Source of the DNA: Wolfiporia cocos
Lineage: Eukaryota; Basidiomycota; Agaricomycetes; Polyporales; Phaeolaceae
DNA: 64,000 nucleotides
NCBI GenBank assembly: GCA_029448655.1
Contig: JACCLO010000002.1
Coordinates: 4,774,001 to 4,838,000 of the forward strand
Reading direction: 5' to 3'
Made by a program: the position numbers and the translations under genes. The notes beneath the pieces are model-generated. The model saw only the letters and a list, made by a program, of their open reading frames with translations. It did not search any database and was not told the origin of the DNA. Shown here one piece after another: positions 19,344-50,728 of the stretch. Positions within the stretch are counted from its first letter, which is position 1. Every line of letters starts with the position of its first letter.

Positions 19344-20963
19344 ATTCTGGACATAGAGGTTGAGAGTAGTTTGGAATCGAATGATATTACAGAAGCCAAC
19401 TGAATACTCACGACTGGTATCACTGTAACCTTGGACCTATACAAACTATTGCCACTTGAAGGTACGCGTGGTGGTTGTAATAATCTGATAGATTCTAGGA
19501 GAGCACGTCTAGCAACCTTTTTGTGATGCTTCTACCTGGGTATGTGCGAATATCGGGAGGAGAGGGGTTGCTCGAAGAGCAACAACGTGTCAAACGACCG
19601 ATTGAAATGCCTTGTGGATGAGACTGAACGTCAGGACGCACGCTTTACCGAGCGCGACGAGCGGAACGCAGAAGCAGATAGGTATGAGATAAGATTTGCA
19701 GGAACTGAATCAGACACTCACAAGTATGTATCCCTGGACTCGAGCGAGCAATAGTCGCTGGTACTTCCGCAGTAATCTACCGGCGTTCAGGGGTTCTTGC
19801 GAGCCCTGCGCGAATCTCCCTTTCAGGATGCTCGACAGCAAAAGAGTATTGGACAGAACGGTAACGTGTCGTCGCTAATTGCAAGTCCCAGAGTCAAGAC
19901 AGCGCCTTTCAGGGATGCTCTTTACTTCGTATGAGCGCGTGACGAATTCGGTCGTCAGTGTCACAAGCCTCCAACGGCTGCGCGGGCCTTGCAGGACGAG
20001 ATTGGTTGCTCTGTGTTTTGGTGGGGGATGGCCAAGATGAGAGTTCAGGCTCAAGGGAGAATACGGAAGTCGAGGCAGGCCGCAAGTGACCTCGCCCCAT
20101 GACCGTGTCCGGAACTTTGCATTCGGCCTATGGTTCCCACTGTGCTCTTCTGGTCGACTTCCCTTCGCACATTCAAGCCGCATCACGAGTTCTGACACCT
20201 GTTCATTCGCTAACTATGTTACAGATTCTACAGAGCGGTTCCGCGCCAGGCCGAAGAATGAGGGGAAGGGGTAACGAAACGTCCTATTCTACTCAAACCT
20301 ACACCATGATGGACGCGCTCATAGCCGCTCACGTATGTCATCCAACGGCGTTGGCGTAGGCAACGTTCCGATGGTGCAATCAACTGCGGGGGATGCATGA
20401 CTGATATAGCTCGAACAATTGATGGGATGCGTATGGCGATCAGCATTGGCACAGCATTTCCTGCAGGCACAACCAGAAGGGGAGTAATATTTACGTACTG
20501 CGAAGACAGCGAAGTATGCAAGCATGTCAAGAGACCATTCGTGTCTTGGGGTACTCCGCAGGTTATTGGGGACAGGCAAAGTAGGTGGTGCCACTAGCTC
20601 GTACTGAGACGGGGATTTGCAGAAAGGCTATTGAGATTTCGGATTGCGAAGGTGAGATTAAGGACGACCCGATACACAAGTGTCCCTGCACCGCATTATC
20701 TTTCAGAGATAAGCACGTAGTAACGGCGGGGTGTGTCGAACATTGTAAGTAGCGAAGACTTGCACAAGCGGGATCATGAAGATATAGTCTGAGGGCAATG
20801 AGCTAACTCGGACAAAATCAAGACCACAAGACATGGGAAAGTTCTTTGAATAAGCAGGGCATCTGTTACAGAACTTCAGCGCGGATCCAGCTGGATCCAG
20901 CTTTTCGACGCAAGCCGGAGAACTATCGAATCGCATTTGAGAGCGGCGCAGTGGCAGAGTAGT
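19344..20963. other. Spacer between gene block and rearranged block
   Basis: The upstream flank of the Gid1-like gene grades into AT-richer DNA. No coding region is recognised. The last bases before 20,964 are the outer side of the inversion breakpoint described for the split helicase. Confidence 0.45.
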
Positions 20964-23498
20964 CACCGATGAAGGTGCAGTCGTCCTGGAAGGGGAACTC
21001 GAGAAGCTGCTGAAACGCGAGCTCCGCAATCGTCTGCGTCACAGAGTTCAAAACGAGAATGAGATGTGCAGAAATGTACAGGCGCTGGATATATGCCTCG
21101 CGAAAGCTGTGGCTGGCCATTGCGCTCAGGATGACAGCTGTACACAGGACCACATTGACGCTTATTCCTACCAATTGGACGCTTACAACACACGAATCCG
21201 AATAATTCTGCAACAGATGCTCATATACAACACAGTATATGCAATAGAGCAGCGGGAAGAGCAAAGCGTTCAGCGCCGGTGAGTCTGCTTGTATGGTAGC
21301 GGACAAGTCAATGGCTTATTGCAATCACTGCCTTTGAACGTAGACATTGGCTCCAAGTCCTACACGAGGCCCTCTATCCCCTTCATTACAAGCTTGGCTC
21401 CTCTCACAACTTTGAGACAGAAAAGATACCAGAATACGAAGCAGCAAAGCCTGTTGTCATGTCGTGGATTTGTGAATGGCTCGATATTCTCCACCTCGGG
21501 GTTAATGGCCTGTACCACGTCTTCCTCACCAGCTTCATGAAGGTTGCTACTCTTACCTTCACCTTCGACAAGCAGTCTGCAAAGCGACAGCTCACTCGTG
21601 CCCTCTGCGTCACTACATACAAGCCCTCCGTGTTACTGAGGCGATGGAAGGGCAGCGAGGTCTACATTGTTGAGGACTTCTTGGCTCTCATGCTAAGTGG
21701 CCATGAAACTTCAATTGTAAGAGGCGTCTTGTTCGTGCGGTGAGTCAAGATGTATCACACTTTTTGAGTGATCTGACCAACAAGAAATGCAGCTACATCA
21801 TCAAGTGTAGAATCCCTATTGACATTGTGGTTTTATGCGACTTCCTTGATCTGCTCTGCGCATCAATAGTGCTAAGAGCTCGATATCAAACGACACGTTC
21901 ACTTCACAATATCACTCTGCCACAAAGCTGGTTGGTGCGGCTTGTGGACTCAATGAAACAACTCTGTATCGAGACGATGAAGTGCAGAGAGATCGGAGAA
22001 ATGTATATTGAGTCAATGTCACAGTTGTTAGATCAAATGCAGACGGGCAAGGATGCCAGTAAGTGCCTGGAACCATGCATACGAATCAGCATGATTAACT
22101 CTTTGACCAGGCTACCTCCTTTTCCATCATTACAATCTATCATCACAAGATACTGAACTCGTGAGGGCTATATCTGTCTCACGCCTGTAAGTTCGATTAC
22201 TGTGGTGCATTGATCTGTAGCTTACATCGCATTTAGCTGCAAAAACTTGTGTCTCTGTACGTCACGTTCATATACGTGCCGTAACTATAAGCCAGACACT
22301 GAAATGAACGGCTGGTAGTGGGATATAACTCTCCGGACGATTATCAAGATGCCGTTTTCAACATTATCAATACACTGCATGGCACTAAACACCATGTCGA
22401 CGGCCTATATGAGCAGTGGGTTTTTGATTAGCAGAAGTCATTCAATAGCAATCTGATTCGCAAACAGGTATGCATCCGCGACGTCTTGGCATGAACTTGC
22501 AGAAACAGTCCGTTCGTTCTCGACCGCTGGGTCGCCCTTAGACGAAATGGTCCAGCTTGTCGAGGTTAACAAACTGACTGGCGACACATACTCGTTCCCA
22601 AACGTCAAGCAGATTGCATACACGACGGTCGATGAGTTACCAGGATTGTTGAGAACCGGCACGACATCCATCCACAGATCTAGCCCTGGTTTGAGGGCGG
22701 CATCGCCCGTTCTCTCCGTACCCGCACTCTCCGTACCCGCACTCTCCGTACCCGCACCTGTGGACCACATCACCGACGAAGCGCATAAAAAAGAGGATGA
22801 CACCGAAGAGGATCCTCATCAAAATGATGCTGTACCTGAGCTCCTCACTGAACAAATCCTTCAAGCTGCACGCAAGGTCTTGGCTACATATCGCCGTTAC
22901 GTAAAACGTCGCGATCAGCTTGACAAGCCTGGAAATGCTCTGCGCAGCGCAACCCGGCGTCGAGTTGCAGCGTCATTCCGAGAGACTTCCGAGACTATGA
23001 CTTGGCCTCGCAGACAGTATCGGATGCTCTTCCTGGGACCCTTACCGCATCTTGTGGTATATCTTGAGGGTGTGAAGGAGTACCTGTACCATCGGAAGAC
23101 TGAAGCAAAGAAGCTGTTGAGAACTGCGCAACACGAGGAGCTGGAGACTGCCGGAAAGGTTTTGACAGATACTTCGTATGCTTATATTGCGACTGCGCTT
23201 CAATAGCATCGCTAACATTCTGTTCTGCTTCAGTCGATGGATGAAGGAGGCCACACACCTTCATAAGCGTCTATTATCAGAGTCGGAGCTTCATCGTAAG
23301 CTAGACCTGGAAGAACTGAAGGCGTGCGTGCGTGAAGTCCAGCGGCTCGCTGAACAGCTACCCTCTGGCGCTGCAGCCTCATGGCGAGGAGATCTTGAAT
23401 TAGCGTTGAAGGGCATCCTCAGGCCCAGAGTGGCAGTCCGAACAAGGGAGAGACCGGTACTTAATGTGGAGGATATCGACCCTCTCGAGGTGTCTTAA
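20964..23498 (+). pseudogene. 3' half of a split TRANK1-like UvrD helicase gene
   Basis: C-terminal part of a large fungal UvrD-like helicase of the TRANK1-like group. Its other half lies at 36,841-42,520 on the opposite strand. Exons read include 20,964-21,278, 21,344-21,739, 21,793-22,058, one starting near 22,111, short ones to ~22,440, then 22,5xx-23,2xx, and a last exon to the TAA at 23,498. The junctions I checked keep frame. Visible blocks are RHWLQVLHEALYPLHYKLG, LPQSWLVRL, SPDDYQDAVFNI and PVLNVEDIDPLEV. There is no ATG at the left end: the frame begins inside ACC-GAT-GAA, the exact sequence at which the other half stops. No internal stop is seen, so the break looks recent. Alone it lacks all helicase motifs. 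Confidence 0.8.
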
Positions 23499-24400
23499 GT
23501 TTAAGCGCCAAGCCAGTGGCTTGGAAGGAGTCTTGAGCTCGCTATATGGGACACCTGATCTTGTGTCGTCGCTTGTATGCAGTCAGCTTTACACTTGTAC
23601 CTCTACATTCCCTCTGATGACCTTGATTTGCTTTTGTCTGTAGTGAGTCTGTCTTCTGACCCCCTTTCTCGACTGCTCCGGCTCGATGCGTGAATGGTGG
23701 CGCTCTGCATGGGCCTTTGACTAGTAATGTATTGTTACAACAATGCGCATGATCCTTCCGGAAGGCCGTATTGCAGCGGAACCGCCAGAAGTTCGCGTAG
23801 TCAAACTGCCACTCCAACAGGCTGGTGGACAAACGCCGGCGTTTAACGTGGAGGAAAATAGCGAGGATATTGTCAATAGACAGTTTTCGCAAGGCTGTGG
23901 GGCTCGCCATCAGTCGGAGTCACTTTTGATCGTCGGTTATGACAGAAGCACACCCAGTCACATCTGGAGTCACGGAACAAGCGCCTAGGCTTGAAGTTAT
24001 CATGACTCGGAGATCTTCGAACACTAGATACAGAAGAAACATTGCGAATGGAATGAGAACCAGCAAGACTCATCAATTCGATTTTGAGAAGTCGCTCGAA
24101 ACGATCGAAAAGCTGAGCAACAGGGGAACGAGAGGATGCATGTGCAGAATCATACAGGGGACGCTCGCTGTGTGAAGGCACAGTGCCAACATCAACGGAA
24201 AGTGACCTCAAACTATGCCCATTGGCGACGGGTTCGCGAATGCACAACACTTCTGCAGAAGACAAAGGTGCAGTAGCTGATATCCCTGACGAAGATTCAA
24301 AAGGCAATAGATCGGCCGGACGCGACTGAACCAAGATGGCGAGAGAACACGGATTTAATCGCACAGAAGCGAGGTGGGGTATGGCACGTGCCAGGCAGTA
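23499..24400. other. Spacer, no gene recognised
   Basis: This lies between the 3' end of the split helicase fragment and the retropepsin-like pseudogene. A minus-strand Ser-rich open frame of 163 codons lies at 23,873-24,364. It could be a downstream exon of the retropepsin-like gene, but it has no recognisable domain. Confidence 0.4.
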
Positions 24401-24833
24401 TCATTGAAGAAAAAGTGAGTATGGCAACGAAAAGACAAAGGGAAGTAACGCACCACGGGATGGTGAAGGCTCCCAGATATAGCCGGGAGGCAAGTTTTCC
24501 AGTACGGACGTAGGCGGCTCGACAAGCCCATGAAGCTCCAATAAAGGCTGACAAGCAAAAATCCAGTCCAAGCCGAGGAGGACATCGGACCGTGGGAGGT
24601 TTGAGACGGGCATGGAGAATGTAGAGAGATAGCGACCCCGCAATGTGGGCACCATTACAGGCCCTGAACCATAGGAGTAAGCAACGCTGCCTCGTACTGA
24701 TACGCGGCGAGGGAGATTGTGCTCGCTGAGGGACTTCAGTCAATTATCTTAATCTGCCAACTGCCCTTCGCTTAAGAAATCGCAGTTGCGAGCTAGGTTT
24801 GCATGCAGATTAATCTACTGTGACAATAAAATG

Positions 24834-24925
24834 GTACATCCCGGGGTCGAACCAAGGACCTCAGTGCAGATCAGAATAAGAGCATCGCAGCATACATTAG
24901 CCAACCGAGCTACAGTGCAACTAGT
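24834..24925 (-). promoter_or_regulatory. tRNA-like Pol III module (left, outward)
   Basis: On the minus strand it has an A-box-like stretch (GCTCGGTTGGCTAATG type) and a B-box-like GGTTCGACCCC. It points to the nearer MITE end. The acceptor stem does not pair, so it is not a functional tRNA gene. Confidence 0.55.
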
Positions 24926-25208
24926 ATCTGCCCCATTTTAAGCAATATATAGAGTATTTTGTAAACTTCATTTTCGCAGTTTAACATCTTCCATAACACA
25001 AATACAAATGAATCTGCCTCTAAAGACCTGTGATTCCAGTGTATTCAGCTTTCCCATGGTGAGTTGCTCCAGGTCAAGCATGGTAAATCAAGCTACCACT
25101 ATCATTGATTTCTGTTTGCTTGTTGGAGCAGTTAGTTGCCTTGATGATTTGCGAAAATTGTGTGTAAAATTTGCGATATATATATTTTGATTGGTCCAGG
25201 GTAACTGT

Positions 25209-25300
25209 TGCCAATATGGCTCAGTTAGCTAATTACGCTGCGATGCGATTATTCTCATCTGCGCTAAGGTCCTTGGTTCGAATCTGGGATGTACCATTTT
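25209..25300 (+). promoter_or_regulatory. tRNA-like Pol III module (right, outward)
   Basis: An A-box-like GGCTCAGTTAGCTAATTACG and the B box GGTTCGAATCT, pointing to the right end of MITE copy 1. It is the mirror partner of the module at 24,834-24,925. Confidence 0.6.
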
Positions 25301-25740
25301 ATTGTCACAGTAGATTAATCTGCCGCAGTTAGCAGATTAATCTGTGTGCAAACCTAGCTCGCAACTGCGATTTCTTAAGCGAAGGGCAGTTGGCAGATTA
25401 AGATAATTGACTGAAACTCTACGCTCGCTAGCGTAGTTGGAAGAGATGCACGATTGTGCAGCATCGGAATCGACGAGAAAGTTAGCAGGTATTCCAGCAT
25501 ACGAGCCGACAACAGCAAGGCGAGGAAGGCAAGCTTTTTCGCCTCACGAAGGGCAGATGCCGAGGCAAACGCGGCAAAACCCAAAAGGCAAAGGTTCCAC
25601 ACACTTAGGAACAGGATAAACCATGGGTGTCGAGAAATGAAACGAAAAATAGGCGCCTTGCAAAAGTTGTATGTTCGTTTGACGAATTCGCGACGATAAG
25701 AACCCACTGCCTTCGGTAGCGGGAATAACCTGTTCACAGT

Positions 25741-26424
25741 AAGTGACCTTACTCAACCCCCCATCTGACACCCTGAGCGCCCGATGCCTTCCACTTACGG
25801 AGTGCAGAATCTCACACTCAACTCATGCTCACCATCCCTTCTCTCTGGGGGCCCGGAGAGGCGGGGTCACAAAGACATCGTATCTAAGTGTATAGCGCTT
25901 TTCCATTGATGCAGTGGCCTGAATGAGTGTTGTCAGTGAAGCTGCGCACAAAAATAAATGGATTGGGCACGGGACTTATGCAGAAAGATTTTTTTGTGTC
26001 TGCATGGGACTTAAAAGAAACGTTTTGCGTGAGAGCTCTTCCTGTTATCTGAACATCGTTGTTTAAGCAGCAGTATATTAGCTACGGTGCTTGATAATCT
26101 TTTTTGAAGAATTACAAACTGGTGTGCAGTCTTGGAAAAAACTGATTCTGTAGATGCTAGTATTGCCTAAGTTCCAAGACCGTGCTATTGATAACCGTGG
26201 TTTTCCCAAACCCTTAACCAAACTGTTTATATTTGTACACAGTTTCATTAACAGTACTCATTCAGGCCACTACATCGATTGAAAAGCGCTATACATTTAA
26301 ATGTGATGTCTTCATGACCCCGCCTCTCCGGGCCACGAGAGAGCAGGGATGTGAGCGTGAATTGAGCGTGAGATTCTGCACTCCGTAAGTGGAAGGCATT
26401 GGGCGCTCAGGGTGTCGGATGGGG
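25741..26424 (+). mobile_element. Mutator-type MITE, copy 1 (right tip lost)
   Basis: This is nearly identical to the element at 49,638-50,728. It starts AAGTGACCTTACTCAACC and has ~100-bp terminal inverted repeats. The right end stops at GGATGGGG, about 20 bases short of the full terminus seen in copy 2. It codes for nothing recognisable. Its right edge lies ~120 bp upstream of the PRP16 start codon, so it may contribute to that promoter or 5' UTR. Confidence 0.8.
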
Positions 26425-26545
26425 CCCACACCGCCTAACTGGCGCTTGGCACCCTTGTACACTACTGACATACATACAGACTCTGCTGCCTAAGGACCTG
26501 CCTTACTGCTCATTCTTTCCTTGATCTCTTGTGCAGACTAGCCGA

Positions 26546-31384
<4,839 letters not shown>

Positions 31385-31948
31385 TCTCGTTTTCCATCTG
31401 ATTGACCTCTTCTCTTGCCCGCGCACTTGCAGGTTGATTGTACGAAAATACCGAGCATCATGTCTCATTTGTCTGTCTAGTGAAATGTACTGCTAGAAAG
31501 GACTTTAATATACATCCATACTGTGTTGCTAGTACGATAAGCAATCGGTCGCAGTACCTGTTGATAATGTCTACAGCCACAGATAAGCCATCATTGCTCT
31601 GGTATCAAAAGCAACGTCAAGCGTCGCATAGTCTTGCGCTAGTCGCTAGTCGAGTGGCATGTGCGTTGCTAGAACGTCTGATTAAGACTAGTCTTGCGCC
31701 ATTTGGACAGCTTGTCGGAATATGTACTATATGGCCGATGATGCAATGGACAAAGCACAGAAAAGCGCAACAGATAAGGAACTATGAGAAACTCAAGGGA
31801 CTGCGCTATGTAGGTCTGCTGCCAGGGCTACGGCTGCGTTTTACAGGCTCCTGTCGGCAGTACGTTTGATTGTGAGTTAAATCTGCAGTCTGCTATACAG
31901 ATTGTGTTCCCATCACTAATATGTAAATGTCGCTCGCTTTCCAAGCTT
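31385..31948. other. Spacer, no gene recognised
   Basis: This lies between the PRP16 stop and the ABC transporter fragment. It is AT-richer than the coding DNA. One short open frame has no recognisable domain. Confidence 0.45.
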
Positions 31949-32703
31949 TCACAAGAATGCTTGTGCCTGCAGTTTCCACAACCGAGCGTATTCTCCATCA
32001 CGTTTGAGTAGCTCCTCATGAGTACCACATTCAACAACCACGGAATCATTCATATATATTGTTAACACTGGCTCAGCAGGTACTGTCAATGACTCACAAA
32101 ATTAGATCTGCATATTTTGTTAGGTTACCAAAACGGTGTGATGAGAACAACATCGTCTTGTTTCCCCTTAGTTCTCGTAACCTGGAAAAGAGATCTGATC
32201 GGTTTACCATGAGCATCTGCAATGAACGCCTCCATCGGCCATTTAGAAATCTCGTACCATGCTCAGCAGCAGGATCCAGGGACGCGCTTGGCTCGTCAAA
32301 TCATAACAGCCCTACTTCTGAGTTATCCGAGACAATGGAGCGCAAGAAGGTTCGTGAACTGCAAAACAACGGTAGATGAGTGATTGATAGCTGTGTTTCT
32401 TGAGAGCTCACATACACAGCAAGCCTTTGCATTTGTCCTCCGCTCAATGTTCAGCCGTCAGTTGACCTTAAGCCTCCGAAGCTACGCACGGCACTATAGT
32501 CGACTTTTCGACCAAAAAGCATGCGAGTTCCTTCTGGGAGGTTTGAATAATAATCTTGGACGGGGCGGTCGAGGTATGTGTCGAAGCCGTCGGGTAGCCG
32601 ATCAATGAACTCCTCGGCGCCCCCAAGCCGTGCAGCTGACCGAATTTCTTCTTCGCTTGTTGCATTGTACGGTTTTCCGAGTGCAATATTTTCACGGATT
32701 TTT
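31949..32703 (-). pseudogene. ABC transporter nucleotide-binding domain fragment
   Basis: The fragment reads IRENIALGKPYNATSEEEIR, then EEFIDRLPDGFDTYLDRPV, LFGRKVDYSAVR, the Walker B region FDEPSASLDPAAEH, the H-loop block SSHRFGNLTKYADL, and ends VECGTHEELLKRDGEYARLW before a TGA at 31,949-31,951. Four to five short exons are implied. A TGA at 32,301-32,303 replaces a leucine directly before FDEP in Walker B, so the frame is dead. The membrane domain and Walker A are missing. The 5' side stops at a 25-bp Mutator-type MITE end. It resembles the basidiomycete ABC proteins whose linker reads SGLPEGT-LFGR. Confidence 0.72.
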
Positions 32704-32713
32704 CAACTGTGAA

Positions 32714-32738
32714 AAGTGACCCTACTCAACCCCCCATC
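32714..32738 (-). repeat. 25-bp terminus of a Mutator-type MITE
   Basis: AAGTGACCCTACTCAACC and the next seven bases match, in reverse orientation, the right terminus of the element at 49,638-50,728. The rest of that element is absent. The hAT transposon begins directly after it. Confidence 0.75.
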
Positions 32739-32761
32739 TAGTGCTGCCGCAAAGGCAAGGT

Positions 32762-32872
32762 ACCTCTTACCTCGAGGTAACCAAAGGTAACATGCCGAGA
32801 TGCCGCTTTACCTCGAGGTACCTCAAGGTAAACCGCCGAGATGCCGATTTTACCTCGAGGTACCTCGAGGTA
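32762..32872. repeat. Left subterminal repeats of the hAT element
   Basis: At least five copies of the palindrome ACCTCGAGGT or a one-base variant, some overlapping as TACCTCGAGGTACCTCGAGG. They are probable transposase-binding sites. Confidence 0.75.
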
Positions 32873-33247
32873 CCTTCTTCCGGTTATGGTATATTACGTC
32901 ATGCTTTTGCATTGGCCCGGAGCGTGTACGAATACGATCAGAGCTTTCACGTCTCGACGAATACATATGACAGCTACCTTGTTGATACACTGAATGACTA
33001 TAGGCAGCCATGATTGCTTACCAGTGATGTGCAACAATGACATGCCTGAGTTTCAACATCCCCCTGCAACTCATTGTTTCCCGCTTCGTTGTGCTTATCT
33101 AATACATGTGGCAGATGTGATTGCTCGCTCGCTTGTTGCATACTTGAAACATATAGAATATTGATAAGCCATGCTACGTGTCACTGCCCTGCACTGCTTG
33201 AAATTGTGAAGCTACCTGTGAGCTGATGCCGCCCTGCTTTAGGAAGT

Positions 33248-36200
33248 ATGGCACAACAACAGACCTCACGATTTCACTGGAATCAGACTGAAGAGTCATC
33301 ACTATCTCGAGTAGCTGAGCAGACTGCAGCTAGCTCTAGCCATTCACTGCCTCTTACTAGTCCGGTAGATTATTCTCACTCACTGTATGCTAACCATGCC
33401 AATAGACACCTAAACTATCGATCATCTCATTGGCAACACTCTCCATCCCTCATTCCTGCTGAGCTGCAATATATCCATTACCATCCACCTGTGCCTGCAA
33501 CCTCATATGGGGGGTCAACTCTAATCTTGGCTGATACTACGGCGGCTGTCAATAATCTCGCTCAAAGCTGTGCTGACCCTGCAGCATCAAAGCGTAAACA
33601 AGCAACCACTGGTGGACGGCAAAGTGGTCAGAAGAGACAGGCTACTTCTGGAAGGCTTACGGAAGCTTGCCAGCCTGACAACTTCAGTAGCAACTCACAG
33701 CCATCAGTGCATGGCGTCGGACCATGCATGGGTTTAACTCCGCCAGGAATTTCACGCGGTTCTCGTGTTCTACAGGCACAGATCCCACGTCAGGCAGGGA
33801 GAGCTGCTGATGATGTCTGGTGGTTTGTGAGACAACTTGACACGGCAGCTAGACCAGCCACTCGTCCACCAGATACACCATCGCTACTAGAAAAACCGGA
33901 TCCAAAGGTTTCAGCCTATCTTGGCTGCAGGTTGTGGTATGTAGCCATGATCTGCATTTCATAGATATGAATAGACTGCGATTTTTTAGCGAGTTACCAG
34001 CCTGGCGGACATGGAAGAATACTGCAGGTCAGATAGAGGCAATCCGTACTCACCTCAAAAAAAACCATGAGAAGGAATGGCGTGATGAGGTTATACAGAG
34101 AAAGCTGAAGGGTTGGCAAGAGCTTTCCGGATTTAATTTTGTTCAACGACGCCGCCACTCTGAGCCATTTACGAAGGAAGGGTTCCGGCAGCGTCTTCTC
34201 GCTTGGGTTGTGGTGGATGATCAGGTATTTTATTTTGCATTACTTCTCGTGTTTTCGGATGGCTCATATCGTTGGATAGTCACTGAATGTGGTTGATTGC
34301 GACGAATTTCGAGAACTATTATTATACGTTGGCGATGACAACCTTGATAATTCAGATATACCTCATCGTACAAAACTGAAGCAGCTCCTCACTGCACGCT
34401 TCAGTGAGCTTCAGGAGAGTATAGCAAGTGATGCGCAGGTAAGCCATGGTATATTATATCTATGTCAGCACTATGACAGTTCAACATCTCAACTTCAGAA
34501 TGCACTGGGCCGGGTTTCCTTTACAAGTGACCTGTGGACTGATCACCAGCTGCGAGGATTCATGGCAATCACACTCCATTTCTGCGCTAAGGACTCTCAT
34601 CGCCGTCTGTGTCTTCAAGCACGCTTGGGCGCATTTCGGCATGTGCGTGGCAGCCACTCGGGTGCTAATCTCGCTGCGCATTTTCTCGAGGTCATCAAGC
34701 AAATGGGACTGCTCAGCAAGGTATTTTTTCCCCTACATCATTACGCAATTTTTTGAATCATGCTGCACTATTCCAGATTGGAATGATTACCCTTGATAAT
34801 GCATCTAATTGTTCGACTATGATGGAAGAGCTAGAGCGCCTATTACACGAAAAGGGGATTCCATTTGACAGGGAAGGCAATCGCATCAGGCATGCCCATA
34901 TAAAATTCATACTATACTCCCTCTCACTCCAGTGTACTAGATGCTTTCCGCATGTGGTGAATATCTCAGTGCAGAAGGGAATCAAGCAGCTCACCTCTGC
35001 AGATGAGGAAGTGTACCATGACGAAGACAGTGACTCAGAGAGTGTAACACCTGATGAGATCAATAACTCCGCTCTGCAAGCAGATATCGAATACGCACAG
35101 GCATTATGCGCAGATCCAGTGGCTCAAGTCCGCGCTCTGGTAGCTGCATGCCGTGCGTCACAACAGCGCCGCGAAGATTTCAGCACTATTATAGTTAACG
35201 GCAATCGTGACAAGATGTTTGGCCCGGAGCCTCTTAGGAATCTACAGCTAGCGCGAGATGTGGATACACGCTGGTCATCCACCTTTATTATGATCGACCG
35301 TGTCCTGGAATTATATCAGGTAAATTCTGCACTGATTTATGAGATGTTTACTAACCTAATCCAGGCCATTGATCTGTTTCTTAAGCAGTCGAAGCATGAA
35401 TCCATTGCATGGCATGCCCTTAGTAGCAAAACTCTGGAGGTCCTTGATGATATCAGAGAGTTTCTCGAGGCTCCACATGCAGTACAAGAGCTTCTCTCGG
35501 CGGAAAAAACCCCCACGCTATGCTTGGTTCTTCCTGCATACGAGAAGCTGATATTACTTCTAAAGCTTCTGAAGCGCAAGCTACCAAAGATAGCGTACGC
35601 TATTTCGATGTCTATTGCCAAGCTTGAAGAATACCTCTCAAAGTCGCGCAAAACACGAATATATACAGTCGCAGTTGGTATGTTATATCCTCTAAATGGC
35701 TTATCTTTGGCTGATTGTGATTTTTAGTCTTGAATCCTTCCATGAAGTTTGAATGGCTTACCGAGCACTGGAGTCGAGAAGATTGCACGTCAGCACATAC
35801 TTGGCTAAGAGATAGCGTGGGTTATCTTTATTTTAACTCAACATGATTGATGGTGACATACTTATAGATGCTCGAGTTCCGCAGGACGATGCGTTCCACA
35901 CGTTCTGCTAATCCTGATCCACCACATTCAACCAATGCACGGCAGCCTGCGGCAGCTTCTTCGATCACTTCCCCTGCATCTGCTCTTGCCTCTCGGTCTC
36001 AAAGGCTCGGCTTGAAGCGTGTCAATGCAATGATTAGGTCCTTATCGGCGGACAGCAGAGCTCTGACAGCCACTGACTGGGGGCCTATGGCTAGCCCTCC
36101 CACAGCTCAAGAGACAACCGAAGCTGAAAGGCAAGAGGCGGAACGCCGAGCGCGTGAGCGCGATGAGCGAATTGTCGATAACGAGTTACACCGCTATATT

Positions 36201-36588
36201 GATGCTGGTCTTGTGGATGATGAGGACGAGGATTTTGACATCCTCAAATACTGGGAGGTGAGTCATGCTAGCATTCGTATTGTGTATTGAGTCTAACATG
36301 TTGGATATGTAGACCCACGAACGTGAATATCCTACATTGTACCGGGCCGCACTCGACGTTCTGCCTGTGCAGGCATCAGCGGTGCCTTGCGAGAGGGTGT
36401 TCTCATCAAGTAAAGACACAGACACCTCTCGGCGCAGTAGCTTAGACCCTGAGACAATGGAGATGCTTCAAGTCATCAAGTACAGTTTACGCCAGGACCG
36501 ACTCTCCTTCACTGATGACTGGCTGCCGAACGAGCACGAGATGCTGCGCGACGACGCGCTAACTATCGAGGCGGATACATTAGATTAG
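33248..36588 (+). CDS. hAT-family transposase with BED zinc finger
   Basis: Nine exons are read: 33,248-33,936, 33,990-34,224, 34,280-34,438, 34,499-34,720, 34,777-35,319, 35,365-35,677, 35,728-35,816, 35,868-36,257 and 36,313-36,588. All phases close with no stop, giving about 971 residues. A disordered head is followed by a BED finger (GCRLCELPAWRTWKN, then HLKKNH; Cys-Cys-His-His). The RNase H-like core shows FTSDLWTDHQLRGFMAITLH and MITLDNASNC, with CFPHVVNISVQKG and DVDTRWSSTF beyond. The C-terminal hAT dimerisation block is DVLPVQASAVPCERVFSSSK. The introns at 35,320-35,364 (45 nt) and any within 34,860-34,950 are less certain, since reading through also stays open. Nothing disabling is seen. 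Confidence 0.9.
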
Positions 36589-36734
36589 CCCCAGACTCCG
36601 CAGACACTGTATGAGTCTATTAACTACAATAATTACTCGAACGCGCCCACGACTCCATAGCTTCGCAAAGCTGAACGACCACTCACGCCAAGCGCCCGAG
36701 CTCACCATATTAGGTAAACTAGCCGAATTTGCTC

Positions 36735-36822
36735 GATCACCTCGAGGTACCTCGAGGTGACCTTGATCTATCTCGAGGTAAACCAAGGTGACGTTGCCAT
36801 CACCTCGAGGTGACCTTCACCT
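36735..36822. repeat. Right subterminal repeats of the hAT element
   Basis: Four copies of ACCTCGAGGT or close variants (including TATCTCGAGGT) lie inside the right terminus, mirroring the left cluster. Confidence 0.72.
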
Positions 36823-36840
36823 TACCTTCCGGCAGCACTA

Positions 36841-39800
36841 CATCGGTCCGTTCAATTGGGATGCGATGCTTCACGCCGCGCACGTATAGAATGGTGCCCT
36901 TAGATAGCAGAAAGCGGTCAGCGGATAGCGCCTTGATTGCAAACATCCGCCTGATGCGTTCATTCTGGCACAGATGAGCTTGGGTAATAAGCTTCTGCAG
37001 CAGTTGCACGTAGAGATGGAAATCGTGGAGATCCGAGATGACTTGAGAGGGAGGTATTCCGTGTAAGCAGGGAGGATTGCGAAAGACTCGATCAAGACAC
37101 ATCAGTGCTGACGCGTCATCGTAGTGGTAAAATGCAGCGCCCAATTGAAGAAGTGCGGGGATATCATTCCGTATGATGGCGCGAAACATGTCAACCTGTC
37201 AGCCAAGCATAAGAAGGGCGTGGAGCGTCTCGCAAGCGAAAGAGCTCACTTCAGCTTGAGTGCGCTCATCGTGCGAGTCCAGCTCGAGTTGTTCGATTTT
37301 CAGAAGTAGCTTCTGTGGATCGACGTTTCGAGAGGCAGGTCCAACTTCACCTGAAGTGCCTAGTGATAGGCCTTGCCACAGTCCATCGAGAAGACACCGC
37401 AATACCCGGCGAAGTGATTCAGAATCACCCCTCTCCATCATGAATGACTCGACTGCCTCAAGAATTCGGCCCTTTGACAACTGCAGCTCTGCCGCCTCGG
37501 TGAATCTTCTATCTTTCAGCAACGTGATGCGGGCTTCATCCAAGCCAAAATCATCCATATATTCCAATGCTTCCTCTTCGTTGGCGAACAACTTAAGAGC
37601 TTTCCTGGGAAAGCATCAGTAGCGGATAAGACAGCTAGACATCCGCAGTGTGCCACTTACTTCAGTTGGTTAGTTCTCAAGTACTCTAGACGCGCGACTT
37701 TAAGAATGCCATTGGCAATATCTTCCTCTACGGACAATCGATGGGCTTGAATGACATCAACAGCTTCGTCGAACAATCCGCCTTTCCGATATGACTGCGC
37801 AGAATGGCTATAAAGCCTTGCATTGCGGTAAGCTTCGCCAGCCAATCTATATTCGCCACACTGCGAATAACACTCAGCAGCGATACGGTGATAGGTCATC
37901 CGGTCCTCGCTAGCTACATTCGGAGAGTTGGCGGAAGCTCTAAAAGCTTGAGCTGCTCTCGTGTAAGCGGCGAGGCGTGACTTTCCACCGTCGCGCGAAT
38001 GAACCGGAGTGGATCTAGCCAGCTCTCGAAGATGATAGGCGCACGCGATATCCTTCTCCATCTGTCTTGACGCTCGCTCATAGCAATAGATCGCTTGTTT
38101 GTATCGCTTATTCTTGAACATTTCATCCGCCTTCTTCGCCCATTCCTCTTCGGTAGACGATTTAGCGAGCCGTGGCGCATCAACCCCAGGTGTGAGGGTC
38201 TCTATCTGGTCCCTCCATACGATCTACGCCATTGTTACACATCCGGTCCTGGCCTCATCAACCAGCACTCACTCTCATTGGGTCGCCAACGTCGGAGGTA
38301 TCAGCAATCCAGAGGTTTTTCCTCGCTCTTGTTATAGCAACGTATAGGAGCTTGAGCTGATGACGAGGATCTAATCAACTATTCGCGTTCTGCATCTGCG
38401 TACGACTACTTACCTCGCGGCAAAGAACGTTGTAGCGTGCATCAATGAGCTGAGGTCTCCCGTTTGACTCTTTAGATTGCGGTGTCACTTCGCGGAGAAA
38501 GATTCGCCAGCTTTGTGGATCGGCGGTCGAATCTGCGAAGAAATCATACAGCAGTACCTGCAAACCATATCATTGACAAGTTATGAGAAAAAGCACTGTG
38601 TGCAATGAGAATCGCCTCACATCATTGAATTCGAGACCTTTGGCCTCATATACTGTCCTAAGTCCGGATGTCAGCCCAGCAATGCAAGCCTCAGGGAATA
38701 TATCATACAGTATCAGGCCAATATCTCGATCGTCCAACGCTCTGCGAAGCTTCTCCCGAGCAGAATTGTTTCGAACTAAGACACCTGTCGCCAGTGCGAA
38801 AGTGAAAATTCGTCTACGAGTGACAAGCGTAGCGACATACATTGCTCCGCGCCGAATTCTATGGGATCGCCCCTGCATCTAGCTTAATGACAATATACAT
38901 AGAGTAATTCATAAACAGCTCACGATGAACCAAACAAGAGGTCCTCGTAACTGCCGGAATCTGCGTTCCATTGACTGAAAAAAATAGGCTTGATACCTTT
39001 GATCTTGCCTTCTTCTCTCGGAAGGCTGTCGATGGAGTACGGCCAGAATTTTTTGATAAGATCAATCACAGTTCGTGCGCAGTCCATAATCCCCGCATGA
39101 GAGCGATAGTTCGTTACGAGGTGGAATGTCCGAGGATTTACGTGCGGTAACGTTGATGACCCATTCTCCTGAAATGCCTCCGTAAGCGGGGTGCGTAACG
39201 TGCTCGGTAGGCATCACAGATGTACCTCTATCCTGTATAAGAATGCTTTCAGATCGTCAAACCGGAACGCACTCCCATAGGAGATTGTCTGCGCAGTGTC
39301 TCCTCCTATAAACAGCCCGCTCGTAGCGTTTGCGCACATCATTCGTAGAACTTCGCATGTGGGCCAGCTTAGATGCATCAACATATGAACGGTTTGATCC
39401 CTACCTAAAACATCAATCAATCGATTGTCCTGTGCTTCATCGATGTACCTATTGCTCGATTGAAATGGCTGACGCTGCATAATTGAAAGTGCATGGCAAC
39501 GCACAAGAAATCAATTGGCTGCCCAGGAACTCCTTTCTTGGGGTCGCGGAGATCCTTCAAGATTGCGTGGGTTCTTTGACGATGATTCATCTCAGTCCGC
39601 ACGCAACGATTGAATGAATTACATACCTGTCTGCAACATCATATTCACCGCGTTCCTGTTTTTTCTTGAGATAAGCTTTGAACAGTTGATAAATCGTGTC
39701 ACGTTGATCTGCAAACGTTGCTTGTGTACGATGGCTGAGGCTAATATACGTCTTCTCATCCAAGTATCCGCTTGCATTGTGCAAAGTATCTTCCGAGCCC

Positions 39801-42520
39801 TTGATCACACCTAGCAAGTAATAAATCCACATTTGAGGCCTGTGAAAGAATCCTGACTATGCACGGACCCATAAATTCACCAAAAACTACGGCGGGATCT
39901 GTAAAAGCATTAGGCGGTAGAACCTCAAGTTAAGAGGGTACGGCTCACCTAAACCCTTAGTCAGCGGCTGAGGAAGGTGGGGCCAGTATGAGTCTTGGAA
40001 CTTGTCGAAGGAAACCAGTCGCGTGCGATGACTACGGAACCAAGACCCTGCGGACGAGTCATCCCTACTTACGTCGTTCCCAAGTAGCCGACATAACTGG
40101 AGACAACGAGTGCGTCAGAATTATAACTTTCACACGTAGCACAGTTTGTATACCTTGTCGAACGTCACAAACAGTGGGAAATCGTCATCTTGCAACTTGC
40201 TGAAGCGTTCATCAACATCGTCTTGCCACAGTGCTTCTTCGTCTTCATCGACAAGCCGCTGTGATGGCTGGCCGCGCCTTTCATCCACCATTGACCTTAG
40301 CTCCTGAGATGACTTATCCGCTATTTCCAAGGATTCTGATAACTTGTTGAAGTAATCCTGCACTTTTCTTGCGAGAACACTGGATTGTGTGACAAACATT
40401 TGACGAGGCTTCGCCATTGCACCATCACACATCTTCCATGCGCGTTCAATGCCAAGCATCTTGAACATCATGGTGGTTGTCTTCCTGATATGGCTGTCAA
40501 GCACTTTAGCGACATCTGTACCATTATATGGCGCACCCAGTGCCGCTCCTGCCAATCACATAACAGGAGAGTGGGTATTCGATTATTTCCTGTTCTTTCT
40601 CTCTGGACAATTCAATCAGCATGCGGCAGCCTCTATTGCACAAAAGTATTTACGAAACATTGAATACGTGCGCCACGTCTTGATCTGCTAGGATACCTGA
40701 AATAAATTAGCACAATACGCTGCATGCCATTTTGTCAAACATACTATTTAGGAACGCCTGCACGATTCCGGCATTCTTCAGTGAAGTCAATATCTACAGA
40801 TTACTAACAGCCCACCTGTGAAAAAGTCACATATTTGTCGAGCCTACATGATTCTCATCGTTCAGCGTTCACGCAAACACCAACTCGGCTTCAGTGAGAC
40901 GTACACGAGCATCTCATGCAACTATGATTTACCACTGATTGTCAGATGTACGTTCGGTGCTGTAGAATGTGAGCCATACCTTGAAGAGGTCGTCCTTGTG
41001 CAAATTCGGCAGTCCAGCGCGCTCCTGGCCATGAATACCATCAATTTGAGAGCTGACGGCGTTCCAGAACGGTTCGCCCATCTCGTTGTCTTCGTACACT
41101 CCAAACACCTTAATCACTATAAGAATAATGAGTTGATACGAGGTCATTTGTTGTGTGACCCTGTCCTACCTTCCTTCGTGGTCTTGCCAGTGCGAGTCAG
41201 TCACTGCCTTCCCTGGACACGGCCCGTAGCATACTTACTTTACTTTCGTATTCGGTTACACTGTCAAAATAATACTATTGACAAACCTAATTCAGAGGTA
41301 ATGCTCGAGCCATTGGGGATATCATGGACATACAACAAGGTGATGTTCTCCGACCTGCGCTTGATATATCTGAGGGTTGGCTTCTAGACTCGTGACCTGT
41401 ATATGGTTCTCGCATGAGAATCGGCCTTTTGAAAGATCCCTGCGCACAACGTATGAGACATGTCAAACCTAACGCGTGCTCGAACATGATACCTTATGCT
41501 CTTGTAGATGGTGGTGAACAGTGGCCAGTCGTGCTTGCGTGCATGGCGTACGTCCGAATCCGCTCGAGTGGACATGAGAATACGCCGATTGCCAAGACCC
41601 TTTGCACTTTCGAAGTATAGTGTAGCACGCATAGAATGAAGCGTATCATATGTGGCAGGATCGGCGGTGGAAGGCAAAGTAACGGCACCCGATTCGGACG
41701 CGACATGCTTCGAGTCTCGCTTCAAGACTTCGTCCATGTATGCTCTCTTGAAAATCTGCTTCAATTGTGAATCACGTAGGATCCTGAGGTATTGCTGTAT
41801 TTATGTTGCATCTATCAGCTATAAATCGGCACCCTTCTTCGAGGAAGTACAGACCTGAAGAGTGTGCTTCTGTTCTTCAATGATGGCGACCGAGAGCTGG
41901 TGTGCCTCTTCTTGTGTTTTCGGAACAGGAGCATCTATCATACGAAAAGGCTTTGGATCGAGCATGTCATCGATTCCGAGTTGCCGCTGATACGCCCGTT
42001 TCCGTTTCCCCGATTCCCCTGGCAGCGAAGCATACGCAAGCGTATTCAGCACCGATGACGACGACGGAATGTGTGGACTGCTGTCGTAAAGATGCTGTAA
42101 ATCCTCAGAATCGTTGGGAAGTTGTAGAGATGATATGAATTTAGACAAGGAGTTCAAGAGTTGTTGATGAGTTGATCGGAGAAAGGCTTTGTTGTCCGTA
42201 GGAAAGTCATGTTCGACCCATTTTGATAGCTTGTCGAATACATCAGCTCTCATCGCTAGACATATAGTAAGCCCCCGAAGAACGTATATACCAGGTGAAT
42301 TCATACCGCAGACGGCAAACGCAAAGAGAGCGGGAATTCCACCAAGGTCTGTAGCGAAGGATTCCGCACTCACCACTGAGCTCTCGAGGCGGCTTTCGAG
42401 GACGCTGATAGCGTTCCCAAGAGCGACTTCGTTGCTCAGTAGCGAGATGTCCAGAAGGACCTTGTCAAACCTGAAATACGACTGCTCCGGTACTTTCGCT
42501 GTCGAGGGGCTGCCCTGCAT
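36841..42520 (-). pseudogene. 5' half of the split TRANK1-like UvrD helicase gene
   Basis: Large UvrD/SF1-type protein of the fungal TRANK1-like group. The starts are ATG at 42,520, exon 1 to 41,855, and exon 2 from 41,794. Walker A is split by an intron: VIGRSGTG then KTTTMMFK (~40,560 and ~40,480). Later motifs are YIDEAQD (~39,440), GGDTAQTI, NYRSHAGIMDCA, VYEAKGLEFNDV (~38,650) and LLYVAITRARKNLWIADTS (~38,300). TPR-like helices follow between 38,120 and 37,000 (CYERASRQMEKDIACAYHL type). The reading ends IPIERTD at the hAT edge and would continue directly into the first codons at 20,965. No internal stop was noticed. It may still yield a truncated helicase. The biological role of the family is unknown. 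Confidence 0.82.
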
Positions 42521-43565
42521 GGTGGTGGAGAGAGGGTGACTCACGAGAGAGTGCCTCGCCCATTTGGATCCACAGCAGCTAATCTATGTGTGAAGCGCGT
42601 GGGCCTCGTGGGTTGATGGGATCATGGGTCCACACAAAGTTCAAGGGTGATTTTTCGCATAATAACCGACTGCGGACGCATCCAGCTGACCTGGAGCCGT
42701 CAATTATATGCATGCATCAAGTCAGGTATGGCTATCAGAGTTATTTAACATGATTCCTGGCACGAAGACTGTTGCGCCACAGCGCTATGATCGATACACG
42801 AGGCAAATCATCATATAATAAAGGGACGACCGTTGCGTGGGAACTGCCATGTGCTTTTCCACGTGCGCCACGTGCTGTCCGTCGTCCCATAGGGCTCGCG
42901 CCACCGACCCGGGGAGTTGGCCAGTGGATTCCCACGCCCGGCGCCTGCAAGGCGCGCGATCCCTTCGGCGAAAAACGTTTCGCGCGTCCTCCCTGCGCTG
43001 TGCCACGGGGATTTTGTAGCTGTTGTAACGTAGATGGCCTGTACTGTAGATACACGCGATTAATTAAGAGAATTCAGGGAGTTTTTTGAGGCACCACACA
43101 ATGTTACAAGCGAAGCGACGACGACACCGAGCATCAGCGAGGTGGAGGAAGTGGCTGAGCGGGCAGAGAACAAAGGACAGGTGCAACAGGGTGATCACAC
43201 ACCCTGGAGGTTGGGTGGACTCATAATGTCTCCATCCAGTGTTTTTTTTCCCTTATTCTATTAGTTATCTCACTTAAGTGACAATTGATATTCGTGGCGA
43301 AGCCATGGGTAATTAAACTCGTACGATTACATAGTCTCGTCCCCAGCCCTTGCACGTGGCTGCTGCCACTCGGGAGGACCCGAGCGGAGTGCGAAAAACA
43401 TATCGCAGCAGCCACTGTACAAGGTCTGGTGGGTTTGGTCTGGTCAGGGCGGGTGTAGGTGACCCCATCTCGTGACCGCGACGCTGGCGCCTACAGCGCG
43501 ACGCGTTGGCGGTGTGCGTACAATTGTACTTGTATGCTACCTGCCTTCGCAGAATTACTGCCATA
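42521..43565. other. Divergent promoter region between two helicase genes
   Basis: About 1 kb lies between the UvrD-like start (-) and the RecQ-like start (+). It holds a GC-rich block at 42,830-43,020 with short palindromes, and an inverted pair TGGCTGCTGCC / CGCAGCAGCCA at ~43,368 and ~43,404. No gene is recognised. Confidence 0.5.
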
Positions 43566-45700: not shown

Positions 45701-45954
45701 GGCTTGGTGAGTCCCACAGAGCCATCTGTGTCAGTTTGTAATATTGAAGAAACTTGTAAATCAGGGACGCAGAAAGAAACGTCATGTGTATATCCATAAG
45801 ATTTGGGGCGTGTAACAGCTGGTAATCGTAGAGTTTCAGTCAATTATCTTAATCTGCCAACTGCCCTTCGCTTAAGAAATCGCAGTTGCGAGCTAGGTTT
45901 GCACGCAGATTAATCTGCTAACTGCGGCAGATTAATCTACTGTGACAATAAAAT

Positions 45955-46045
45955 GGCACATCCCGGATTCGAACCAAGGACCTTAGCACAGATGAGAATA
46001 ACAGCATCGCAGTGTAATTAGCCGACTGAGCCATTGTGGCAACAG
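45955..46045 (-). promoter_or_regulatory. tRNA-like Pol III module (left, outward)
   Basis: On the minus strand: A-box TGGCTCAGTCGG and a perfect B box GGTTCGAATCC, pointing to the left end of MITE copy 2. The distance between boxes is longer than in an intronless tRNA. Confidence 0.62.
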
Positions 46046-46329
46046 GTACCATTGACCAATGAAAATATATATAACGCAAATTTTACACACAATTTTCGCA
46101 AATCATCAAGGCAACTAACTGCTCCAACAAGCATAAAGAAATCAATGATAGTGGTAGCTTGATTTACCATGCTTGACCTGGAGCAACTCACCATGGGAAA
46201 GCTGAATACACTGGAATCACAGGTCTTTAGAGGCAGGTTCATTTGTATTTGTGTTATGGAAGATGTTAAACTGCGAAAATGAAGTTTACAAAATACTCTA
46301 TATATTGCTTAAAATGGGGGCAACACCAG

Positions 46330-49637: not shown

Positions 49638-50728
49638 AAGTGACCTTACTCAACCCCCCATCCGACACCCTGAGTGCCCGATGCCTTCCACTTACGGAGT
49701 GCAGAATCTCACACTCAACTCATGCTCACCATCCCTTCTCTCTGGGGGCCCGGAGAGGCGGGGTCACAAAGACATCGTATCTAAGTGTATAGCGCTTTTC
49801 CATTGATGCAGTGGCCTGAATGAGTGTTGTCAGTGAAGCTGCGCACAAAAATAAATGGATTGGGCACGGGACTTATGCAGAAAGATTTTTTTGTGTCTGC
49901 ATGGGACTTAAAAGAAACGTTTTGCGTGAGAGCTCTTCCTGTTATCTGAACATCGTTGTTTAAGCAGCAGTATATTAGCTACGGTGCTTGATAATCTTTT
50001 TTGAAGAATTACAAACTGGTGTGCAGTCTTGGAAAAAACTGATTCTGTAGATGCTAGTATTGCCTAAGTTCCAAGACCGTGCTATTGATAACCGTGGTTT
50101 TCCCAAACCCTTAACCAAACTGTTTATATTTGTACACAGTTTCATTAACAGTACTCATTCAGGCCACTACATCGATTGAAAAGCGCTATACACTTAAATG
50201 TGATGTCTTCATGACCCTGCTGTCACGGGCAAAAGCTTTCCCTAACGACAACGAGTCCGATCCGATCCCCTGAGTGCCCAAGCCCAGCCAGGCCCGGATC
50301 ATACCTTGGAAGGAGCCAGACAACGTCTAGATAACGACACAAGGCCCGGTTCCCACACGGCCACGATGACCGCTACGTATTTGATATACTCTACGCTTCT
50401 ATGTTTCAGAGTCTGGCTTAGACCCCTATCTTAGTCTCGCACCAGACTCCTTAGTTACCATATACGGCCATTATAGTACAAACATGTACAAACAGCCTAC
50501 TAGTATAATAGCAGGCCTCGTTCAGCTGGTAACCCCAGTCTGAACTTGGCGTTCATCCACTTTGCTCCCCTCAGTTTGCTCTAAGGTTTTAGTGGCCTTG
50601 TCACCTGCCTCTCCGGGCCACGAGAGAGCAGGGATGTGAGCGTGAATTGAGCATGAGATTCTGCACTCCGTAAGTGGAAGGCATTGGGCGCTCAGGGTGT
50701 TGGATGGGGGGTTGAGTAGGGTCACTTG
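49638..50728 (+). mobile_element. Mutator-type MITE, copy 2, carrying a solo LTR
   Basis: The element runs from AAGTGACCTTACTC to GAGTAGGGTCACTT with ~100-bp inverted repeats and a perfect 9-bp duplication GGTAAGTTG (49,629-49,637 and 50,729-50,737). A 9-bp duplication with long TIRs is typical of Mutator-like elements. It is 703 bp without the nested LTR, nearly identical to copy 1. The duplicated 9 bases contain the 5' splice site of a RecQ-like gene intron. Confidence 0.92.
50221..50603 (+). mobile_element. Solo LTR (383 bp) nested in the Mutator-type MITE
   Basis: It begins TGTCACGGGC and ends CTTGTCA, with a 5-bp duplication CCTGC on both sides (50,216-50,220 and 50,604-50,608). Comparison with MITE copy 1, which lacks it, shows the empty site. 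No retrotransposon body remains, so it arose by LTR-LTR recombination. Confidence 0.88.

Follow-up and report, generated by a model that had tools for sequence, protein, structure and literature searches.

Two halves of a UvrD-like helicase gene lie on opposite strands in the medicinal wood-rot fungus Wolfiporia cocos, and our comparisons show that they are one interrupted gene and that the split is real. The window, the whole 64,000-nucleotide stretch of DNA analysed here, also holds a second broken unit, the transposon TE2, and both breaks coincide with target sites of one hAT family. In our best model, only the segment S2 (20,964-26,424/5) was moved and flipped, and we consider the whole account, a reversed-ends-like excision of S2 from between two hATs followed by its inverted recapture, to be probable, albeit well short of certain. 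It would be a natural, sequence-resolved hAT rearrangement with four traceable target-duplication halves, in which the freed segment, an apparent by-product of the reversed-ends reaction, survives at a new place. Through an event of this kind, a large helicase gene can be split and about 5.5 kb of other DNA brought near the start of a splicing-helicase gene; if the account is true, host DNA has been moved and flipped without leaving a transposon end where it landed, a kind of change that the usual searches for transposon-borne rearrangements would miss. The features are collected in Table 1.

Table 1. Features of the window involved in the rearrangement (positions are those of the window)
Feature	Positions	Strand	Remarks
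S2, moved and inverted segment	20964..26425	+	both ends at hAT target-duplication boundaries
Helicase gene, 3' half	20964..23498	+	ends at stop codon; paralogue match
hAT alpha duplication, S2 side	20964..20971	+	CACCGATG; first base C vs G in the other copy
TE2 copy A, terminal-inverted-repeat transposon	25741..26424	+	without its last 18 bp
hAT beta duplication, S2 side	26418..26425	+	GATGGGGC; last base C vs G, or G lost
S3, PRP16-like gene and transporter gene fragment	26426..32738	+	not inverted in the best model
TE2 orphan right end	32714..32738	-	25/25 bases equal to copy B 50,703-50,727
hAT beta duplication, other side	32731..32738	-	plus-strand reading CCCCCATC
hAT element, now single	32739..36840	+	left flank beta site, right flank alpha site; from termini and flanks
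hAT alpha duplication, 5'-half side	36841..36848	-	plus-strand reading CATCGGTC
Helicase gene, 5' half	36841..42520	-	start codon at 42,520; paralogue match and joint gene model
TE2 copy B, reference, both ends present	49638..50727	+	9-bp duplication GGTAAGTTG on each side

One helicase gene in two halves

The main evidence comes from a same-genome paralogue (C12:4706124-4714739), which, like one Wolfiporia cocos protein, is continuous through the join point. By BLAST, the 5' half (36,838-42,613) is 92.6% identical to C12:4708989-4714739 and the 3' half (20,965-23,877) is 86.4% identical to C12:4708998-4706124, and the two matches abut in the paralogue with no gap and with an overlap that matches the target duplication in size. 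The 5' half, on the minus strand, terminates in ...GAACGGACCGATG at 36,841, where the hAT terminus TAGTGCTGCCGG comes next, and the 3' half, on the plus strand, begins with CACCGATGAAGG at 20,964. Over the join the paralogue reads ...GAACGGACCGATGAAGG, with a single copy of the 8-mer; only the 8-bp target duplication stands between the gene halves, the reading frame is uninterrupted, and the translation runs in frame (IPIERTD-EGAVVLEGELEKL). A first-pass annotation had proposed just this, one gene cut at a hAT target site with contiguous halves and a preserved frame, and the paralogue and protein alignments bear it out. Its naming of the gene as UvrD also agrees with the UvrD N- and C-terminal domains (Pfam PF00580, 7.1e-08; PF13361, 2.1e-14), which were found by scanning the W. 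cocos relative P0001, the window halves being assigned by their alignment to this protein.

Divergence from the paralogue is nearly the same in the two halves (dS 0.154 and 0.145). The candidate explanation of two different genes, with a jump in divergence where the halves meet, was rejected, given that the join itself shows no such jump: identity is 87.2% and 88.8% in the last two full windows of the 5' half and 97.3% in its final 37-column piece, and 92.8% and 90.0% in the first windows of the 3' half after the join. As a whole, the 3' half is less similar to the paralogue, with windows down to 81.8%. Apart from one paralogue and two partial, distant matches, a genome search with 20,500-23,700 gave no further copies, and no second copy of 18,000-20,990 was found.

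The joint gene model of the window copy and the paralogue has 31 introns and no internal stops in either copy, with the introns picked by a script that penalises stops, so that the lack of stops is in part a product of the method; better evidence against decay is that all the exon gaps between the two copies (7/7) are multiples of 3. The absence of decay stated in the first-pass annotation thus holds for these gaps and for the open frame, with the intron choice weakening the latter, and its view that the event was fairly recent and had one of its breakpoints at a hAT end agrees with ours. A model built only on the paralogue had put 62 stops and 3 frameshift flags into the window copy, and it was superseded by the joint model.

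A second broken unit and four target-duplication halves

The hAT in the window carries the hAT C-terminal dimerisation domain (PF05699, Dimer_Tnp_hAT, E 9.3e-12 at 36,313-36,585); four further hAT-element stretches were scanned, with no family in three of them and the same family under the cut-off in one. This hAT family has short inverted terminal repeats and 8-bp target duplications: identical 8-bp flanks were found in eight of the ten other copies with both ends found, and in the other two the flanks are, on our reading, equal except for a small indel. The ten leave out ends without a partner (L026, L055, L056, L057, and one end each in L045 and L037). The first target-duplication scan kept only pairs agreeing in at least 6 of 8 bases, and it was redone without this filter on 24 loci of our choice; one C67 pair with identical flanks turned out to be a duplicated stretch.

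Within this family the window hAT is an anomaly, since its flanks disagree, CCCCCATC on the left vs. CATCGGTC on the right. The alpha target is GACCGATG, both in the paralogue and in the 5' half, and the beta target is GATGGGGG, both in TE2 copy B and in the orphan TE2 end. The breakpoint which had been placed at the hAT left end is exact in its position, but the sequence there is that of a second hAT insertion site, missed in the first-pass annotation. On both hAT sides there is also a CATC, with a chance of about 1 in 256 on our reading, and this counts against our best model.

The beta site leads to TE2. The right arm of copy A reaches the copy B position 50,709, with the end of copy B at 50,727, and the 25 bp to the left of the hAT (32,714-32,738) are, judging from their full agreement with copy B, the missing right end of copy A. 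The TE2 body and this orphan end overlap by 7-8 bp, like the gene halves, and the outer duplications of copy A, TTCACAGT at 25,733-25,740 and its reversed counterpart at 32,706-32,713, agree in 8/8 bases. A 23-base TE2 end pattern has 10 genome sites at no more than 1 mismatch. The candidate history in which S1 formerly adjoined the TE2 end, by simple inversion, was discarded, given that this end belongs to copy A; a genome pattern search for the TE2 right end plus AACTGTGAA found no site with 3 or fewer mismatches. TE2 shows inverted arms and a target duplication of 9 bp (copy B) or 8 bp (copy A); the hallmarks of Mutator-like transposons are a 9-bp target duplication, long inverted repeats, and a MULE transposase.

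At the gene break and at the TE2 break alike, 7 bases overlap and one more is changed, which adds up to the 8-bp duplication of the hAT family. At both S2 ends (n = 2) the terminal base is a C, against a G next to the hAT in the other duplication half; the changed base is the complement of the one touching the hAT, as in hAT excision footprints. With n = 2, the pattern resembles a hAT-type footprint, the alternative being loss of the G with a neighbour-supplied C, or an ordinary substitution.

Besides the gene 3' half and TE2 copy A minus its right end, S2 contains a retroelement relic, recognised by eye. It now lies about 120 bp upstream of the start codon of the PRP16-like gene, likely at 26,546 (by eye, with its position checked); the best PDB match of the ORF at 29,979-30,704 is PRP16-like. 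The new site of S2 is without an 8-bp duplication (S1 ends in AGAGTAGT and S3 starts with CCACACCG), and therefore the reinsertion was not a normal transposition, a further point against our model; hAT ends were found neither at the S1/S2 (20,963/4) nor at the S2/S3 (26,424/6) junction. The transporter gene in S3 (31,951-32,699) was tried as a test of order and proved uninformative, because its upstream part is absent from the window: the search for it there gave one match at chance level (14,126-14,224, E 0.008), and in the genome an upstream probe of 186 residues matched only its own source.

Deduced ancestral order and the probable displacement of S2

At the level of sequence, the two target sites, the four duplication halves, and the two changed bases are demonstrated, as are the ancestral gene-gene and TE2-TE2 adjacencies. 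From them, the ancestral order S1, S3, hAT, reversed S2, hAT, S5 is strongly deduced, including the adjacency of S1 and S3. We infer that two hATs once existed, one in the gene (GACCGATG) and one in TE2 (GATGGGGG), the second copy and its orientation belonging to this inference.

In the proposed mechanism, two same-direction hATs would have flanked the 5.46-kb S2, one in the helicase gene and the other in the right end of TE2, which would have been downstream of the helicase gene. The hAT transposase would have cut the two inner ends facing each other over S2, the reversed-ends arrangement, releasing S2 with hairpin ends whose opening would leave the one-base complement footprints. The gap would then have been closed through the two homologous hATs, presumably by annealing or recombination, and the single hAT that remains would owe each of its flanks to a different insertion site, while the freed linear S2 would have been captured by end joining, flipped, in an S1/S3 break just upstream of the PRP16-like gene. 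This chemistry of excision and reinsertion is our reconstruction, and we offer only tentatively the general proposal that hAT transposase excises segments between two copies and that the naked linear pieces are recaptured in nearby breaks.

The same final order and junctions would also result from two successive inversions, first of S3 plus S2 (20,964-32,738) and then of S3 back, where both steps would break at the hAT ends and the hATs would merge later; in maize, alternative transposition is known to produce inversions (PMC8225341). We find this unlikely, given that it takes four cuts, one reused breakpoint, and a later merging of hATs, vs. three cuts for excision and reinsertion, and that the two junctions of S2 lack a hAT end. 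The inversion of 20,964-32,738 put forward in the first-pass annotation could be the first of these two steps.

Ectopic recombination between the hATs, releasing S2 and one hAT as a circle, with S2 reinserted later, would account for a single hAT with flanks from two sites, and exchanged target duplications are its signature in Drosophila Galileo (PMC2775673). Nevertheless, a randomly opened circle would give a permuted S2, and the real S2 has each of its ends precisely at a hAT border, with a changed base, so that this explanation still needs cutting at the hAT ends. The hAT with the reciprocal flank pair was not found either: the genome pattern search for the junction of hAT and CCCCCATC gave 10 sites, all at 2 mismatches, and the four inspected have no similarity to hAT, TE2, or S2. 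We judge this course of events improbable.

One inversion of 20,964-32,738 beside a single hAT, as originally annotated, fits the gene halves, the 7/8 duplication match, and the frame, but it leaves TE2 in two pieces despite the matching outer duplications and overlapping inner ends, and the disagreeing hAT flanks unexplained; unless the TE2 match is fortuitous, it already speaks against this inversion, which we hold to be very improbable. Moving S2 alone reunites both the gene and TE2 and accounts for the four duplication halves, and for this reason it is preferred over the single inversion. The Ac/Ds-like aberrant transposition also suggested there is the right class of mechanism. Repeats are present, and yet an assembly error is hardly credible, since the inferred source assembly is described as homokaryotic, with about 330x PacBio plus Hi-C (PMC9503964), and a misjoin is not expected to yield matching duplications at two sites.

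Comparison with known hAT rearrangements

No fungal case of reversed-ends transposition was found in the excerpts of the literature searched; alternative transposition is named there in general terms. In yeasts, Ac/Ds in Candida albicans and Kat1 in Kluyveromyces lactis resemble our proposed case in their hairpin-capped flanks and complement footprints (PMC5873905, PMC4763223), Ac/Ds footprints being centred on the complement of the element-adjacent base (PMC5873905), but these are single-element excisions or programmed cuts at the mating-type locus, and not the removal of a segment between elements. With Drosophila Galileo our case shares flanking duplications from two insertion sites; unlike it, where a chimeric element is expected at each breakpoint (PMC2775673), there is one element here. 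An ectopic-recombination inversion is recognised by elements at both breakpoints whose duplications have been exchanged, and no hAT is present at 20,963/4 or 26,424/6.

An objection comes from one study of Ds in Arabidopsis, where excision occurred without a rise in crossing-over and hairpin ends are argued to be unable to start recombination (PMC1978519); our model needs its repair to run via the hAT ends, which carry no hairpin caps.

The closest comparison is the maize Ac/fAc reversed-ends transposition, in which the segment between the elements is freed (PMC3744419, PMC4270019) and recombination of Ac with fAc is on record (PMC4270019). In our model, the window would share with it two same-direction hATs with inner ends facing over a segment, excision-type footprints, and inter-element recombination; two target sites are demonstrated and one hAT survives, the other hAT and its direction being deduced. 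In the published models, the freed segment is circularised (PMC3744419, PMC4270019) and the hAT ends insert elsewhere, generating an 8-bp duplication there (PMC3744419), whereas here the freed segment would have been reinserted in linear form, and its new site, at S1/S2 and S2/S3, is without a hAT end and without a fresh 8-bp duplication.

One helicase gene in two halves

The proposal of the first-pass annotation that a single UvrD-like helicase gene had been split in two, to be checked by the contiguity of its halves against an intact homologue, was borne out by a search of the genome (64,431,438 bases, 76 contigs), in which an unbroken paralogue runs over the join and the two halves match stretches of it that abut (86.4% identity for window 20,965-23,877 and 92.6% for window 36,838-42,613). 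Likewise, the alignment to P0001, a related W. cocos protein, crosses the join without a gap, the nearest protein relative being from W. cocos MD-104. The near-identity previously noted for the 8-base cut sequences also holds, since the 5' half terminates in GACCGATG and the 3' half opens with CACCGATG, with seven identical bases and one changed, and GACCGATG is present once in the paralogue, at the join position. At present, the 5' half reads 13 residues beyond ERTD into the hAT element and then stops.

Coordinates of the features in the window (C12:4774001-4838000) and, with the prefix C12, elsewhere on its contig
Feature	Position	Strand	Remark
S1	up to 20,963
S2	20,964-26,424/5		moved segment
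S3	26,425/6-32,738		holds PRP16-like gene
S5	from 36,841
Helicase gene, 3' half	20,964-23,498	plus
Helicase gene, 5' half	36,841-42,520	minus
Fast C-terminal region	21,000-23,500		dN/dS 0.77
Unbroken paralogue	C12:4706124-4714739	minus	same contig as window
Related UvrD-like matches	C12:4655001-4715000		near 4659222, 4689330, 4694151, 4706124
hAT	32,739-36,840		now single
TE2 copy A	25,741-26,424		right end gone
TE2 copy B	49,638-50,727		reference
Orphan TE2 right end	32,714-32,738		25 bases left of hAT
ABC transporter gene fragment	31,951-32,699	minus	in-frame stop
Further repeat	24,728-25,423 and 45,827-46,541	opposite	92% identity; one copy in S2
Duplicated flank	63,118-64,000		92% to C12:4697839-4698713

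A joint gene model of the window copy and the paralogue gave 2,148 and 2,135 codons, including the stop, with 31 introns; its seven exonic gaps are all divisible by three and it has no internal stops, which agrees with the earlier remark that neither half is decayed, with the caveat that the absence of stops was partly built in by an intron-choosing script that penalised them. Between the two copies, dS is nearly equal in the two halves (0.154 and 0.145), as expected of a single gene, and dN/dS is 0.22 and 0.77. Introns, on the other hand, diverge more at the 3' side of the gene (56/328 sites) than at the 5' side (99/1134); this fits the one-gene reading less simply, and gene conversion in the 5' part may be its cause. 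No second allele of 20,500-23,700 was found in the genome, where the matches were the region itself, one paralogue (86%) and two distant partial copies (72%); a homokaryon would account for this absence.

With P0001 as outgroup, the window copy is faster in protein sequence than the paralogue, with 51 window-only vs. 27 paralogue-only differences over 1,244 sites of the 5' part, where 82 alignment columns were excluded because the models disagreed, and 91 vs. 15 over 698 sites of the 3' part. This acceleration is not merely a result of the split, because the rise starts before the junction. In a simulation without constraint, which assumed a transition bias, 91 replacements were accompanied by a mean of about 4.9 stop codons, and 0.01 of 2,000 runs had none, the observed zero depending on the intron choice. 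This result and the in-frame gaps suggest a 3' part whose reading frame was preserved during most of the divergence time, and a split that came late compared with the duplication, in line with the recent event proposed earlier. The C-terminal region of the window copy also carries a 12-residue in-frame repeat expansion, with VPALS units near 22,732. Related UvrD-like matches are clustered about 80-135 kb to the left of the window gene, and the duplicated flank at the window's right edge corresponds to sequence adjoining another UvrD-like paralogue.

A second broken unit and two hAT insertion sites

Directly left of the hAT, 25 bases reproduce without mismatch the right end of TE2, a terminal-inverted-repeat transposon whose end sequence occurs four times in the window: at both ends of copy B, which has GGTAAGTTG at either flank, at the left end of copy A, and in this orphan. 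The right arm of copy A can be traced to copy-B position 50,709 (62/64 bases), the orphan starts at copy-B position 50,703 (25/25 bases equal), and the sequence bordering copy A on its outer side, TTCACAGT (25,733-25,740), equals that of the orphan on the opposite strand (32,706-32,713) in 8/8 bases, TTCACAGT having four occurrences in the 64-kb window when both strands are counted, these two included. Given the overlapping inner ends and matching outer flanks, copy A and the orphan were once one element.

The separated parts overlap at both original ends of S2 by seven identical bases and one changed, the size of 8-bp target duplications: GACCGATG/CACCGATG in the helicase gene and GATGGGGG/GATGGGGC in TE2. 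The single hAT is flanked by CCCCCATC and CATCGGTC, one from each insertion site. Among 24 loci scanned for the family, 10 other copies had both ends found, and the 8-bp flanks were identical in eight; the other two, at C12:5184516 and C56:1975485, have 4/8 and 2/8 at strict position and, in our reading, come into agreement with an indel of 4 bp or 1 bp. The disagreeing flanks of the window hAT are therefore unusual for the family, and two insertions explain them, although both flanks contain CATC, which would coincide by chance in about 1 of 256 cases. One of the eight, on contig C3, has oppositely directed ends about 129 kb from each other, and its flanks match when read along the element; it lies in two opposite-direction parts (C3:481663-513041 and 610617-611198), about 98 kb apart, whose outer 8-bp flanks agree, and we read it as a further rearrangement that broke within the hAT copy itself.

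Each end of S2 has C at the position that once abutted a hAT, where the other half of the duplication has its complement, G. Excerpts from PMC4763223 describe hairpin-capped flanking DNA in hAT excision by Kat1 and Hermes, and excerpts from PMC5873905 describe Ac/Ds footprints centred on the complement of the element-adjacent base. The changes favour a hAT-type excision footprint as supportive evidence rather than proof, since there are two of them and, had the G been lost, each C may instead belong to the adjoining segment.

Probable movement of S2 and a proposed mechanism

Continuity of the gene places the start of S2 beside S5, and continuity of TE2 places its end beside the end of S3; from these two adjacencies, the ancestral order would have been S1, S3, reversed S2, S5, given nothing else between S1 and S3. 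S3, with its PRP16-like gene, kept its orientation, and S2 crossed over it and flipped, so that the single inversion of 20,964-32,738 first proposed gives way to movement of S2 between two hAT sites. The PRP16 naming rests on one ORF in S3 and its top match in the PDB. About 120 bases (26,426-26,546) now separate S2 from the probable start of this PRP16-like splicing helicase gene downstream, a codon picked by eye at 26,546 and checked for position, and the arrival of S2 may have altered the promoter. The ABC transporter fragment in S3 is related to C12:4970906-4971658 (68%), and its upstream part was not found in the window or genome.

A pair of inversions yields the same final order and requires more cuts. 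In movement between hAT sites, S2 would have been bracketed by two hATs pointing the same way, with their inner ends facing each other across it, as in the reversed-ends arrangement; transposase would have cut at these inner ends, repair via the two hATs would have left one on the chromosome, and S2 would have been captured by end joining. No transposon signature was seen at the S1/S3 break, and a search for a hAT end abutting the other copy of CCCCCATC gave ten sites, all with two mismatches, the four examined being unrelated. In maize, as excerpts from PMC3744419 and PMC4270019 describe it, reversed-ends transposition of the Ac/fAc type frees the inter-element segment, and recombination between the elements can follow; there, however, the freed segment is drawn as a circle, whereas here S2 sits uncircularised between S1 and S3, reinserted without a duplication at the new site (AGAGTAGT vs. 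CCACACCG).
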